Shown in pieces: positions 9,594 through 33,002 of a stretch of 36,792 nucleotides of DNA. The stretch is taken from the IMG/VR virus record IMGVR_UViG_3300020411_001986, positions 1-36,792 of that record. The stretch is one strand, 5' to 3'. Below the pieces are notes generated by a model. The model had not been told where the DNA came from and did no database searches. It saw only the letters and a program-made list of their open reading frames with translations. This stretch comes from a virus. Each line of letters starts with the position of its first letter. The stretch's first letter is position 1. The position numbers were made by a program, and so were the translations under genes.

Positions 9594-10235
9594 ATGGCTA
9601 ATGGAACACTAGGACAATCAGCTTTAGCGGCAAACACCGACACGACTGTTTACACCTCTGGCACTGAAACCGTCACTTTTACCGTCACGGTTGCCGGAGG
9701 TAAGTTAGTGATAGACGGAGTATCGCAAGATACTTTAACTTTGCGCGAAGGCTCAACTTATACGTTTGACCAATCTGACGCGACTAACGCAACTCATCCT
9801 CTACGGTTATCGACAACAGCAGACGGTACGCATGGCGGCGGTAGTGAGTACACAACAGGCGTAACTACTAATGGCACTCCTGGAAGCAGCGGAGCATATA
9901 CTCGCATCGTTGTCGCTACAGGCGCACCGACTCTTTATTATTACTGTTCTGCTCATGCTGCGATGGGCGGCACAGCAAATACGTCAGCAAATACAGTTAC
10001 ATCATCTACAGTAAATGTATCGATGATAAACAAGGGTGCTTCTCCTGCTGCTGTTAGATTAGCAGTAGCGGCAAGTGGCACACCATCAACTTCTGAATTT
10101 TTAGAATACGACACTGTGTTAGGTGTTGGGGATGTTCTTGAACGCACAGGCATAGTTTTAACAGCAGATAAAAACGTAGTGGCGAGAAGTAATGTCGCTG
10201 ATGTCGCTGTCAACATTTACGGTTATGAGGCTTAG
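9594..10235 (+). CDS. Virion-region protein with cupredoxin-like domain
   Basis: In 213 residues, a beta-rich domain (about 25-126) contains a full blue-copper-type ligand set: His68 in NATHPLRL, then Cys118, His121 and Met124 in YYYCSAHAAMGG, the same Cys-x2-His-x2-Met spacing as amicyanin. The remaining C-terminal part (130-213) is a second beta-rich domain ending VAVNIYGYEA. It sits between two tail-fibre-like genes, so a surface or adhesion role is likely. Whether it binds copper is inference; similar sequence in phage structural proteins may use only the fold. A ribosome site (AGAGGA) supports the start. No signal peptide is seen. Confidence 0.7.
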   Translation: MANGTLGQSALAANTDTTVYTSGTETVTFTVTVAGGKLVIDGVSQDTLTLREGSTYTFDQSDATNATHPLRLSTTADGTHGGGSEYTTGVTTNGTPGSSGAYTRIVVATGAPTLYYYCSAHAAMGGTANTSANTVTSSTVNVSMINKGASPAAVRLAVAASGTPSTSEFLEYDTVLGVGDVLERTGIVLTADKNVVARSNVADVAVNIYGYEA

Positions 10236-13195: not shown

Positions 13196-13930
13196 ATGGC
13201 ACTACCAGAAATTTCACAAAAACTGACAAATCCAGTGACAGGAGTATTTGGTACTGGTCAGGTCAAAATGTTCGCAACGACAGGCACGTTTACTGTTCCT
13301 ATCGGTATCTCTAGATGTCGTGTAAGAGTCTGGGGCGCAGGAGGAGGCAATTCGGGATGTGGTGGCGGTTTTGCTATGGAGGAAATTGACCTTGGCACTA
13401 CGGCAACAGTGGCGGTTACGGTTGGCACAGGCAGTTCAGGAAATGGAGGCACATCTTCTTTTGGTTCTTACTGTTCCGCAACAGGAGGCACAGCTAACAG
13501 CACTACCGGAGCAGGAGCAGGAACAGGCGGTGATGTAAATTATACAGGCGGTGCAGGTGGTACTAATTGCGGTGGCGGTGCAGCGGGTATTTTTGGTGAT
13601 GGTGGACAAGGCGGTGGCGGTTATTCTGGTTTCAACGGTAATGCAGGTGGCGGTCAAGGCAGCACATCTTCAACATCTTCAAAGAATTTTGGTGGAAATG
13701 GGTTTTTAGGCACTGGTGGTAGTTCTAACTTTTACGGCAGACTGCCTCCAACGTCAGGTATAGATTCAGGTTGGGGTCTTGATGCTATCGGGGCAGGAGG
13801 CGGTGGCACTGAGTATCAGGGAGGAATAAACGGTGGCGGTGGTGGACAATACGGTGATGGCGGTTGGCCTGCTGGCGGTGGCGGTAATTCTTATAAAGGT
13901 GGTGACGGCTTAGTGATTGTGGAGTTTTAA
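13196..13930 (+). CDS. Glycine-rich tail tip/adhesin protein
   Basis: A 244-residue protein with a short beta-rich N-terminus (MFATTGTFTVPIGISRCRVR at 25-44, then VWGAGGGNSG) of the phage glycine-rich domain type, followed by almost continuous Gly runs to the end (for example GGGGQYGDGGWPAGGGG). Such sequences form polyglycine-II-like sandwiches at the tips of phage fibres and bind surface receptors or cap the fibre. Position directly after the 984-residue protein supports a fibre-tip role. The ribosome site GGGAG sits close to the start. Codon usage is forced to GGN and gives a locally repetitive DNA, a likely hot spot for recombination. Confidence 0.75.
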   Translation: MALPEISQKLTNPVTGVFGTGQVKMFATTGTFTVPIGISRCRVRVWGAGGGNSGCGGGFAMEEIDLGTTATVAVTVGTGSSGNGGTSSFGSYCSATGGTANSTTGAGAGTGGDVNYTGGAGGTNCGGGAAGIFGDGGQGGGGYSGFNGNAGGGQGSTSSTSSKNFGGNGFLGTGGSSNFYGRLPPTSGIDSGWGLDAIGAGGGGTEYQGGINGGGGGQYGDGGWPAGGGGNSYKGGDGLVIVEF

Positions 13931-16347: not shown

Positions 16348-17490
16348 ATGGCTGAACCAATAAGCACAACTATGGCAATAGTTGACACAATACAAAAAGT
16401 TAAGCAAATAGCTGACTTTTTTAAATCTATTAAAGGCTTGTTTAAAGGTAAAGAGGTAATCCCTTATACCGCACAAGAGCTTGCGGATATGTCTTTTGAG
16501 CAAATTGAGCAAATGGTCAACTCGCCAAATTTATATGGCGATGGTGGCAATGAAGGGCAGTTAGAGGCAATCGAAGCACAATTTGAAGATGCTGTTTCAA
16601 AAGTACAAGGTTTAGAAGAAAGTCCTGAAAAGACACGGTTGTTAAACGAAGCTGTGCGAATTTTGCCCCGTGGTTTTACGCAGCTTACTGAAACGGACAT
16701 CATGCCAGATTTAGATGCACTTAGTGACACCACGCAAGACGATGACGATGACGATGATGCTATTGTAACTATCGGTGGCGGTAACGATGTTGTAGGTACA
16801 ACACCGACAGATACCAATACGGTTGTGTCAAGCGAAACACCCGAAGATATATTGGCGAAATATAAGGATAGAGCTGACCCTGTGACAGATATGTTGCGCG
16901 ATTACAAACAGGACGATGGTTCGAATTTTCCAGTAAACGTGCTTCTTGAGATTATTAGTGATTATGCTGTCAACAGAGACAACAAAGACGCGCAGGCTAT
17001 TCTTGCTACATGGAATGACAAAGTAGCCGCGACAAAAGATCAAATTTTAGCAAATGAGGCTACTGCTGGAAATACGGCTGGAGCTACTAGCAACGTACCA
17101 ACAGGAAACGTACCGACAGGAAACGTACCGACAGGAAATGTCCCTACAGGAAACGTGCCAACTGGGAATGTGCCGACAGGAAACGTCCCTGCTGGTGGCG
17201 TTGTGAGTCAAGGAAGTGTGTTAGATCAATCAGGCACAGGCACAGTCAACGTGGACGACAAAGTGCCAAATATATTCAACATACCAATTCCAGGCCCACA
17301 AGGTGAACGCGGCGAAAGAGGATTACAAGGGATACAAGGAATTGCAGGGAAAAATGCTGTACCAATAATCTCTACACCAATATCTGACTCTTATTTGTTC
17401 CAAATGGACATACCAGAAGTGCCAGTAACTAGAGGTACATTAGTAGAACGGGCAATGATAGCTGACAATAATTGGAGAAACATCGTATGA
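16348..17490 (+). CDS. Repeat protein with NVPTG repeats and collagen-like segment
   Basis: The 380-residue protein begins directly after the holin stop. It has a hydrophobic/basic N-terminus (QIADFFKSIKGLFKGK), an acidic patch of seven Asp near residue 132, seven pentapeptide repeats (mostly NVPTG, about 249-283), and then a short collagen-like Gly-X-Y stretch GPQGERGERGLQGIQGIAG (about 318-336), with a globular C-terminal end VTRGTLVERAMIADNNWRNI. Collagen-like segments in phages generally form trimeric structural elements. Position before tail-tube A suggests a tail or fibre-base component. No enzymatic motif is visible; the function is unknown. Confidence 0.6.
   Translation: MAEPISTTMAIVDTIQKVKQIADFFKSIKGLFKGKEVIPYTAQELADMSFEQIEQMVNSPNLYGDGGNEGQLEAIEAQFEDAVSKVQGLEESPEKTRLLNEAVRILPRGFTQLTETDIMPDLDALSDTTQDDDDDDDAIVTIGGGNDVVGTTPTDTNTVVSSETPEDILAKYKDRADPVTDMLRDYKQDDGSNFPVNVLLEIISDYAVNRDNKDAQAILATWNDKVAATKDQILANEATAGNTAGATSNVPTGNVPTGNVPTGNVPTGNVPTGNVPTGNVPAGGVVSQGSVLDQSGTGTVNVDDKVPNIFNIPIPGPQGERGERGLQGIQGIAGKNAVPIISTPISDSYLFQMDIPEVPVTRGTLVERAMIADNNWRNIV
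17092..17196 (+). repeat. Seven tandem 15-bp repeats within a coding region
   Basis: The unit AACGTACCGACAGGA is repeated seven times (17092-17196), coding for NVPTG with small changes in the last copy (NVPAG). Copies two and three are identical; others differ mainly at third codon positions, so the protein repeat is better kept than the DNA. Slippage here changes the length of a flexible linker in multiples of five residues. Confidence 0.9.
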
Positions 17491-30670: not shown

Positions 30671-30946
30671 ATGATGCGGAACGGAAGCCAGCTACCTCTG
30701 CGGCTGTTTTTAGACGAATGTATTTCAAATCGGCGCATGACGCAGCGCACAACTGCCGCGTTATTTGGCGTGACCCAAGCGGCAATCTCTCAAATGTGTC
30801 GTGGCGAACGAGAAATCGTTGTCCAAAAAGAATTTAATGAACAAGAGCAACGCTCCTATTTCAGACTGATAGAAATAAAGGAGCTTGGCGCTGGCACATT
30901 TGAAAAACCAAAAGTTGATAGCGTAAATGCGTTTCCAGGCTTGTGA
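30671..30946 (+). CDS. Cro-like HTH protein, 91 aa
   Basis: The 91-residue protein contains a Cro-type helix-turn-helix at about residues 24-44: TQRTTAALFGVTQAAISQMC followed by RGEREI. Such proteins bind operators and shut off repressor synthesis during lytic growth, or regulate replication genes. The start has AAAAGGA at eight bases. The last 20 bases overlap the primase-like gene. Whether this protein or the 131-residue HTH protein is the functional Cro counterpart is not clear; here the position (second in the operon) differs from lambda, where Cro comes first. Confidence 0.75.
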   Translation: MMRNGSQLPLRLFLDECISNRRMTQRTTAALFGVTQAAISQMCRGEREIVVQKEFNEQEQRSYFRLIEIKELGAGTFEKPKVDSVNAFPGL

Positions 30947-31340
30947 TTTTGCGGCGCTTTGTGAAGGGTCGCGTCAAATCAGGGAAGGCGAATATCAGGC
31001 TAAATGCCCCGCACATGATGACTCTAGCCCCTCGCTCAACATAAAGGACGGTGAAAAAGGTTTGCTCGTTCACTGTTACGCAGGGTGCAGCGTTCAGGAG
31101 GTGTGTGACGCGGCAGGGGTAAAAATACAAGACCTTTTCGACAATCAAAATTTTGTGCCTGACAGCTACCCACCAAAAGAAAGGGAGTTTGACGATACGT
31201 TAATTTTTATTTGCGAGGAGTCAATAAGGTTAGGCAAAAAGCTAACGCAAAAAGATGAAGACGACTATGTAAAAAGTAAATTAAGAAAAGCGCAGAATGA
31301 AGGGAAGCAAAATTATGGCAGGAGATTGGCTCAAGATTGA
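30927..31340 (+). CDS. CHC2 zinc-finger primase-like protein (N-terminal domain only)
   Basis: The 137-residue protein has the zinc-binding domain of DNA primases: Cys27-Pro-x-His30 (AKCPAHDDSSPSLNI) and Cys50-x3-Cys54 (LVHCYAGCSVQEV), followed by AAGVKIQDLF. The TOPRIM catalytic domain normally found after it is missing, because the frame ends soon after in a Lys-rich helical segment. It may recruit a primase or bind single-stranded DNA near the origin, working with the initiator and helicase encoded next. The overlap with the Cro-like gene and with the next gene (26 bases) indicates a compact replication operon. Confidence 0.8.
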   Translation: MRFQACDFAALCEGSRQIREGEYQAKCPAHDDSSPSLNIKDGEKGLLVHCYAGCSVQEVCDAAGVKIQDLFDNQNFVPDSYPPKEREFDDTLIFICEESIRLGKKLTQKDEDDYVKSKLRKAQNEGKQNYGRRLAQD

Positions 31341-32046
31341 AATGACAACACCAGACAAGCCCGAAATTTTAGAAATGTCACAGTTATTGGGCGGTATGGA
31401 TACTGACGCGGTTTTTGGAAAATGTTTTAGGGTTTGGTCTTGGTTTGACCAGCACACAGCTTGTGGTGACGCACCGAGAATCACCACAAATTATTTAGAC
31501 CGCATTTGTGGTGTAGAAAAATTTTGTGAGGCGATGCTTGTGGTGGGTTGGTTGTCGATTGAAAACGAACGTGTGGTGATGCCAAATTTCACACGCCATC
31601 ATACAAAGTCCAGTAAAGACAGGGCTTTAGCAAATCAGAGGCAAGCTCTGTATCGTGAAAAGTTACAAAAGGGTGACGCTTGTGGTGACGCTTGTGGTGA
31701 TGAAAATAGTGAGAATGTTTCGTCACTAGAAAAGAGAATAGAAGAAGTATATATACCACCGGAAAAAAAGGACGCAAGAGAAAAAGCATTTGAACAATTT
31801 TGGTTAGCTTATCCTGGAAAAAAAGGAAGTAAACAATATGCGTTAGATGCGTTTAGCCGAAAAGTCAGAACAAAAGAAAACATTGAAATTTGTCTAAACA
31901 ATATAAACAACAGAAACGCGACAACTTTAGAAATAGGCTGGGGCGTTTCAGATATCAAGTACATCCCTCACGCTTCAACATTCCTCAATAAAAAAATGTG
32001 GCTGGATAAAATCGAATCATCAGACACTACTGAGTTTGCGCTATGA
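31315..32046 (+). CDS. Replication initiator-like protein
   Basis: A 243-residue protein with an N-terminal winged-helix-like region (DWLKIEMTTPDKPEILEMSQ; VFGKCFRVWSWFDQHTACGD) and a C-terminal segment with FEQFWLAYPGKKGSKQYALD and YIPHASTFLNKKMW, typical of phage replication proteins of the lambda O/DnaD-like type that load a helicase. ATG 31315 is preferred to ATG 31297 as AAGGGAAG precedes it at eight bases. Inside its sequence lies a cluster of TTGTGGTGA repeats (31461-31700), as in lambda O, whose gene contains the origin. The helicase gene follows with ATGA overlap. Confidence 0.75.
   Translation: MAGDWLKIEMTTPDKPEILEMSQLLGGMDTDAVFGKCFRVWSWFDQHTACGDAPRITTNYLDRICGVEKFCEAMLVVGWLSIENERVVMPNFTRHHTKSSKDRALANQRQALYREKLQKGDACGDACGDENSENVSSLEKRIEEVYIPPEKKDAREKAFEQFWLAYPGKKGSKQYALDAFSRKVRTKENIEICLNNINNRNATTLEIGWGVSDIKYIPHASTFLNKKMWLDKIESSDTTEFAL
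31461..31700. repeat. Iteron-like repeats inside the replication gene, candidate origin
   Basis: TTGTGGTGA occurs exactly at 31461-31469, 31680-31688 and 31692-31700, and inverted at 31481-31489. Near copies with one change lie at 31506-31514, 31538-31546 and 31571-31579. The last two exact copies form a 12-base tandem unit GGTGACGCTTGT from 31672. An AT-rich stretch follows (from 31701), as expected of an unwinding element. The location in an initiator gene matches the lambda ori pattern; function is inference. Confidence 0.65.
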
Positions 32047-33002
32047 ATATCATTCAAAGCATGAGCAGCGAGGAAGTGCAAAAAGCGATGGCTGTTGCTC
32101 AGTCGCACCGCATCAATGTCTTATCGCAGCACAGAGAAAAAATAATAGACCAAATCAAAAACGGTAAAACTTTAAACGGTATACGTTTGGCGTGGTCGAA
32201 AACACACAATGAAGTTGCTTTTCCCGTTGGCGTTACCTTGCTCACTGGCGCAAATGCCAGCTTTAAAAGCACGATAGCCTCACAACTGCTGCTGTACGCC
32301 GCAAAAGTCGAAAATATCAAGGTCGGTTTAGCGTCCTTTGAAATGTCAATTCCTGACATTGGGGAGTTGATGACTCAACAGACGGCGGGAACTGACGAGC
32401 CTACGATTGAATGGTATGAAAAGTTTGAAAAGTGGTCAGAAGATAAGATTTATGTGTACGACCAGCTAGGGTCAGTAATGCCCGAAAAAGTTTTAGGGGC
32501 TGTTCATGCCTTTGGTCAGAGAGGTTGCAAGTTAGTTTGTGTTGACTCGCTAATGATGTGCAGCGTTGGGGGTGATGGTGAAACTAATAGCCTCGAAAAA
32601 GAAAGGGCTTTTGTAAGCTCGTTAATCGGCATTGCAAGGACGCATGACATGGCGGTGATACTCGTTCATCACTTGCGTAAACCTTCTAACATTCAGCAAG
32701 GACAGCAATATGTCGGCACAAAATGGGATATCAGAGGGTCAGGGCAGATAGTTGATTTAGCGGCGTTGGTGTTAATAGCCAGCAGCGACCAAAAGAAAAC
32801 TGAACTGATACAGAAAAGGGATAAATTCGGGGCGGTCTTAACTGACCAAGAAACTGAATACATCGAAAAACACGCTTGCTTGTGCTTGAACGTAGCGAAA
32901 AACAGGTATTCGGCATTTGAAGGGAAAATTAATTTATGGCGTGTTCCTGGACGGAATCACGTTGGCAGAAAACAAGGACGGTCAATGACTTATGACTTTT
33001 AA
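32043..33002 (+). CDS. RecA-fold replicative helicase-like ATPase
   Basis: A 319-residue ATPase with Walker A GANASFKST (about 69-77) and Walker B CKLVCVDSLMM (about 164-174), then VILVHHLRKPSN (about 207-218), a pattern of hexameric replicative helicases of the DnaB/RepA type. Its smaller size and missing N-terminal domain resemble RepA-like helicases. It probably unwinds the fork after loading by the initiator. The C-terminal basic end (GRNHVGRKQGRSMTYDF) may bind DNA. Start overlaps the initiator stop by four bases. It differs from full DnaB by lack of the primase-binding N-terminal domain. Confidence 0.8.
   Translation: MNIIQSMSSEEVQKAMAVAQSHRINVLSQHREKIIDQIKNGKTLNGIRLAWSKTHNEVAFPVGVTLLTGANASFKSTIASQLLLYAAKVENIKVGLASFEMSIPDIGELMTQQTAGTDEPTIEWYEKFEKWSEDKIYVYDQLGSVMPEKVLGAVHAFGQRGCKLVCVDSLMMCSVGGDGETNSLEKERAFVSSLIGIARTHDMAVILVHHLRKPSNIQQGQQYVGTKWDIRGSGQIVDLAALVLIASSDQKKTELIQKRDKFGAVLTDQETEYIEKHACLCLNVAKNRYSAFEGKINLWRVPGRNHVGRKQGRSMTYDF

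Follow-up and report, generated by a model that had tools for sequence, protein, structure and literature searches.

The window, by which we mean the whole stretch of DNA analysed, is a metagenomic virus record of 36,792 bases. On its plus strand the gene at 31315..32046 encodes a protein of 243 aa that we assign to the YdaU-like phage replication initiators from profile matches, its translation and an AlphaFold2 model. Family membership is given by the N-terminal domain, which matches phrog_2509 (E 1.2e-44) and phrog_9474 (E 1.2e-34), both families of replication initiation proteins; identity to phage proteins such as Rac YdaU is roughly 25-47%. We placed the start at 31315 (MAGDWLK...) because relatives begin at MAGDW; the ORF finder also gives an earlier start at 31297. 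AlphaFold2 predicts a winged-helix-like domain (aa 1-118), a disordered linker (119-148) and a helical C-terminal part (149-209), with pLDDT mostly >90 over aa 11-90. A fold search returned weak winged-helix matches (best E 0.28), and a search of solved structures by sequence gave no match to the initiator. The neighbouring genes also point to replication. Upstream, together with a gene for an HTH protein, lies a gene for a DnaG-type CHC2 zinc finger (30927..31340, plus strand; PF01807, E 5.7e-4, below the curated cut-off; phrog_6088, E 1.4e-13), in whose product Pfam and phrog profiles detected no primase catalytic domain. Downstream, the gene at 32043..33002 (plus strand) encodes a RecA-like/DnaB-like replicative helicase (PF13481, E 1.1e-11; PF03796, E 5.9e-7; phrog_239 primase/helicase, E 2e-28), the matches being confined to the RecA-like/C-terminal part of DnaB.

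Inside the initiator gene there are seven copies of a TGTGGTG core, spanning 31461-31700, and each of these seven main sites continues upstream into TTGTGGTGA or a near match. The nonamer TTGTGGTGA is exact at 31461(+), 31481(-), 31680(+) and 31692(+) and carries one mismatch at 31506(+), 31538(+) and 31571(+); the word of the window can be written TTGTGGTGA(C/T), and TGTGGTGA sites extend over 31461-31703. The array falls into two clusters. Cluster A (31461-31579) opens with the half-site TTGTGGTGACGC (31461..31472, plus strand), which encodes ACGDA and holds the gene position at which relatives have GTAACGC (nt 149/152). Its partner, TTGTGGTGATTC on the minus strand (31478..31489), has its core register 12 bp away. 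The exact copies in these two half-sites make a 9-bp inverted repeat, and the half-sites together form a 19-bp dyad like the GTAACGC-N5-GCGTTAC of relatives. Three plus-strand half-sites follow, TTGTGGTGT (31506..31514), TTGTGGTGG (31538..31546) and GTGTGGTGA (31571..31579). Cluster B (31673-31726) consists of a GTGACGC core that lacks the TTGTG extension (31673..31679, plus strand), a second TTGTGGTGACGC (31680..31691, plus strand), TTGTGGTGATGA (31692..31703, plus strand) 12 bp past the preceding half-site, and a terminal half-site, GTGACG on the minus strand (CGTCAC on the plus strand; 31721..31726). The last is weak when taken alone, abuts a purine tract and occupies the spot where most relatives place their last minus-strand half-site. 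The final two TTGTGGTGA copies are a tandem of the 12-base unit GCTTGTGGTGAC. According to the AlphaFold2 model, cluster A is written in codons of the predicted DNA-binding domain and cluster B in those of the disordered linker. From 31721 to 31757 the order is CGTCAC-TAGAA-AAGAG-AATAG-AAGAA-GTATATATACC, of which the part at 31727..31757 (plus strand), degenerate pentamers and then GTATATATACC, is a candidate unwinding element. With the GTGACGC at 31673, the CGTCAC at 31721 and the purine/TATATA stretch to about 31757 included, the feature reaches slightly beyond 31700.

In none of 2,000 trials did synonymous-codon shuffles, in which the protein and its codon usage were kept constant, yield more than 3 exact or 6 one-mismatch copies; the gene itself has 4 and 7. 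In a motif-free version of the test the best 7-, 8- and 10-mer counts of the gene exceeded those of all 1,000 shuffles. Chance as the source of the repeats is ruled out by these shuffles together with the flank controls described below. The phasing of the seven sites fits a period of 10.9 bp (p ~4e-4, the period search being allowed for). Elsewhere in the window a motif-free scan met repeat clusters of comparable size only in low-complexity A/T runs, and found no better iteron cluster. Two weaker clusters were seen, one of AGGAAATGT-like repeats at about 16920-17340 (6 copies with one mismatch, 1 exact) and one of GGTGGCGGT at 13641-13900 (6 copies, 3 exact). A first-pass annotation made from the sequence had described seven copies, four of them exact, within 31461-31700, partly in tandem with a 12-base unit, recurring beyond chance, followed by AT-rich DNA and set in an initiator-like gene. 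Each of these points is borne out, the A+T content being 64-70% over 31701-31900 versus 54-58% over the repeats; that one exact copy lies on the minus strand had gone unmentioned. GC skew, suggested there as a pointer to the origin, tracks the direction of the genes in this linear fragment and marks no origin.

The layout of the array is shared by other members of the family. After a first set of 14 relatives, we drew dereplicated homologues from viral contigs, phage records and genomes, 90 at first and 155 in the end; a search of the genome collection with the window protein alone gave no matches, and a search with an alignment gave 49 loci. Several of the first 14 relatives carry a different repeated word, GTAACGC, at matching gene positions. 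The first 600 nt of the 90 dereplicated genes contain 370 copies of this word, where synonymous shuffles predict 61.7, and 76 of the 90 have at least three copies (3.2 expected). Its density is 13.9/kb at gene nt 136-435 and 0.18/kb in flanking DNA, where the sites are 78-fold rarer. Without any assumed motif, some 7-mer appears at least five times in nt 131-430 of 43% of initiator genes, versus 0.2% of 1,809 flank windows. Cluster A of the relatives begins with a plus-strand site at nt 149 or 152 and a minus-strand partner 12 bp on, the pair forming a 19-bp palindrome; often more sites follow every 11 bp. Cluster B occupies roughly nt 335-430. The step from one site to the next is mostly 12, 11, 23, 22, 33 or 45 bp, and the periodicity peaks near 11.5 bp, a spacing of ~11-12 bp corresponding to one helical turn. 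The window, too, shows half-sites near gene nt 149-206 and 335-430, its core register being nt 152, 164, 197 and 359-383 versus 149/152, 161/164, 194/197 and 344-427 in relatives; exact counterparts of its sites at 31506-31571 are missing in some of them. In a subfamily that uses TGTCCGC (L084, L210, L213, L295-L374) the first cluster is at nt 54-79 rather than 149-206 and the +/- pairs are 14 bp apart, which to judge from the sequences is a second arrangement of the same putative kind of origin.

Straight after cluster B most relatives have a tandem (AAGAG)n tract that encodes EEKRREEK. At least 17 of 20 period-5 matches were found in 79 of 153 initiator genes, against 1.0 expected. The tract at 31727-31757 is the counterpart of this element in the window, degenerate and not significant in the window alone. 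The purine pentamers of relatives stand at about gene nt 375-415, past the last half-site (e.g. L093, L164, L146, L084), and a Vibrio-type group has TAGATAAGAG repeats in their place.

How can a fixed array be reconciled with a changing word and with a coding sequence? In the window the word is read as ACGD, ICGV, LVVG and RVVM on the plus strand, and as ITT where it lies on the other strand. Since one word recurs in several frames and both orientations, the protein alone does not explain it and it must have been selected as DNA. The 7-base word of relatives encodes [G/S/C]-N-A in one direction and S-V-T in the other. Because the layout is kept among related phages while the word changes, the site also shapes the protein sequence, which extends the earlier remark that the repeats mould the protein through ACGD. 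By a mechanical assignment to the most frequent of seven words, the 155 genes comprise 100 with GTAACGC, 30 with TGTCCGC, 10 with GTCACGC, 6 with TGTCACA, 3 with GTGACGC, 2 with CTAACGC, 1 with the word of the window and 3 without a class. Sites of one gene match each other: 1150 of 1300 within-gene pairs have the same middle base of GTNACGC, versus 967 (maximum 1010) when bases are shuffled across genes. Residue 52, which is coded by the first site, is N in 99/100 GTAACGC genes, H in 9/10 GTCACGC genes and D in 2/3 GTGACGC genes and in the window. The third base of the Val codon of the SVT close by is the same iteron position on the opposite strand, and this codon reads GTT in 89 of the 100 N52 genes, GTG in 9 of the 11 H52 genes and GTC in both D52 genes (2/2), counts that, like those for residue 52, ignore shared ancestry. 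The link holds also in the linker, ~70 codons away, and is absent for other Val codons.

The word goes with the initiator lineage, and the tree requires at least 13-14 changes of word class, many of its forks being poorly supported. In a test of the link between word and codon on independent pairs of the tree, nearly all pairings run in the same direction, without reaching significance (4 pairs, 1 of them well supported). Since only one independent pair has strong support, independent switching of the word in YdaU-like initiators is likely, not proven. Half-sites of the types GTAACGC, GTGACGC and GTCACGC are mixed within single genes in L092, L111, L237, L245, L249, L252 and L276, which one would expect if the word is in transition or the middle base is relaxed. 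In the helix past the wing (residues 106-117) users of GTAACGC have TAKRVAxHK and users of GTCACGC or TGTCACA have DAERKRKSR; these are candidate specificity residues, confounded by ancestry.

The word of the window differs from those of other lineages. GTAACGC has no copy in the window; this word is usual in the family and not defining, since several lineages differ. The word of the window is shared only with one 98%-identical contig, and neither a tblastn search nor two pattern scans over viral contigs turned up another relative that uses it. The unrelated viral contig L045 has three close TTGTGGTGA tandem pairs at 9837-9935, near which no YdaU-like gene was found on the fetched stretch. As three GTGACGC cores stand in the family register (nt 152, 359 and 371), the protein sits on a long branch of the tree and the word recurs in a single near-identical contig, the window appears to be a divergent member of the family, with a word that developed from the GTGACGC type or alongside it. 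The first-pass annotation had named relatives with the same protein and no repeats as a case against its reading; the relatives we collected have repeats at the same gene positions, usually of another word. Conservation thus holds for position, spacing and agreement within a gene, and not for the exact repeat sequence. The further expectation that the sites would be conserved above the surrounding codons found no backing in the 98%-identical relative, where 2 of 24 differences lie inside sites (P = 0.41) and avoidance of sites is not significant; with the word limited to these two records, wider conservation cannot check the sites of the window.

Based on these observations, we propose that the region very probably serves as a replication origin within a gene, functioning in the manner of lambda ori, a candidate status already given to it in the first-pass annotation and now supported by the layout in relatives. 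The model draws on the layout, the 12-bp spacing within pairs and the 19-bp palindrome, all of which are shared with lambda. The initiator (31315-32046) would bind the phased half-sites of clusters A and B through its N-terminal winged-helix domain. With sites about one helical turn apart, the bound copies would lie on one face of the DNA and could thus assemble into a nucleoprotein complex. Strain on the adjoining purine/A+T-rich stretch (31727-31757 and beyond) would open the duplex, where the helicase encoded directly downstream would be loaded. It is also conceivable, if unlikely, that the initiator binds these sites as an autoregulatory or copy-control element, an operator or a means of handcuffing, and that melting starts elsewhere. 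All the evidence for binding sites fits this alternative equally well, and iterons of some systems serve control as well as initiation; however, the array lies deep in the coding region and not over a promoter, in most relatives it borders, as lambda ori does, on a conserved purine/A-rich tract, and the repeat scan offered no better iteron cluster in the window. It is very improbable that the sites serve another DNA-binding protein, such as a host regulator or a factor for partition or packaging, and are in the initiator gene by coincidence. In favour of that alternative, the link between initiator and sites is drawn here from sequence, but the sites keep fixed positions in the initiator gene in records from Proteobacteria, Planctomycetes and Verrucomicrobia, are depleted in the flanks and have a word that tracks the initiator lineage. 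Least credible of all is that the repeats derive from protein repeats (ACGD, GNA, SVT) or replication slippage and have no function as DNA: duplication could explain the two window copies in the 12-bp tandem encoding ACGDACGD, yet the synonymous shuffles, which retain the protein repeats, stay below the observed counts, the word occurs in two orientations and different frames, and the SVT Val codon follows residue 52 where Val codons elsewhere do not, so that a protein-driven repeat or slippage alone is rejected.

What are the implications of an intragenic origin of this kind? For hundreds of phages and prophages, E. coli Rac among them, the lambda-like model predicts with single-base precision where the origin lies. 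Most proteins of this family carry no annotation beyond hypothetical or replication protein. The array is a clear case of a DNA site writing part of a protein, with a synonymous Val codon that follows a residue ~70 codons off. On balance we lean towards seeing the YdaU-like initiators as an extensive natural series, in the course of which the initiator and the origin embedded in its gene have repeatedly moved to a new word together, every half-site of the gene, its codons and residue 52 (N/H/D) following, while the phased two-cluster layout and the purine tract stayed fixed; the phage of the window would then have the most unusual word, extended to TTGTGGTGA. Such a series would lend itself to the study of how the DNA specificity of an initiator shifts together with its origin.

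The parallel with lambda, drawn in the first-pass annotation, holds for layout and not for detectable homology of the proteins. In both systems the repeats lie inside the initiator gene, between the DNA-binding domain and the C-terminal part, and the annotated iterons of lambda occupy nt 349-433 of gene O where cluster B occupies nt 359-412 of its own gene. The lambda iterons have TCCCTC-type arms 12 bp apart, followed by ACAAAAGAAAAAAGAAAAGATTATT, and the minimal O site is a 19-bp imperfect inverted repeat (PMC7466680). The window likewise has inverted half-sites 12 bp apart in a 19-bp unit, with the next sites mostly ~11-12 bp on, and its iterons stand after or around the DNA-binding domain. 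Unwinding in lambda needs an A+T-rich tract (PMC7466680), and a purine/A-rich tract lies immediately 3' of the iterons in both cases (31701-31900 and 31727-31757 in the window); comparable to the pentamer tract of relatives, an AAAAG-rich stretch of lambda O encodes KEKRK. However, the site words differ, lambda has only full palindromes whereas the window has half-sites in mixed orientations, and the extra cluster in the codons of the DNA-binding domain had no lambda counterpart in the repeat scan. The initiator and lambda O have no detectable homology (hhalign probability 0.1%), and Pfam Phage_rep_O, which matches lambda O itself at E 5.7e-36, has no match in the initiator of the window. The likeness may reflect convergence or very old common descent.

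Within the family, Rac YdaU (36% identity over 167 aa) is encoded by a gene with six GTAACGC half-sites at corresponding positions. Rac differs from the window in its word, GTAACGC instead of TTGTGGTGA(C/T), and in the downstream gene, which encodes a DnaC-like loader (ydaV) instead of a DnaB/RecA-like helicase. That the Rac prophage has an active, normally repressed origin, oriJ (PMC3945230), counts in favour of the origin reading. PMC11014345 cites a paper on an oriJ plasmid; the openly accessible literature searched yielded neither a map position of oriJ within Rac nor a paper describing the half-sites of YdaU-like genes. Iteron plasmids and the pri-rep-ori modules of PICIs similarly set initiator-specific direct repeats beside an A+T-rich melting region. 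Their iterons, in contrast, lie outside the rep gene and usually adjoin it, as in PICIs, where an A+T-rich region 3' of rep has a set of iterons on each side (PMC6092414).
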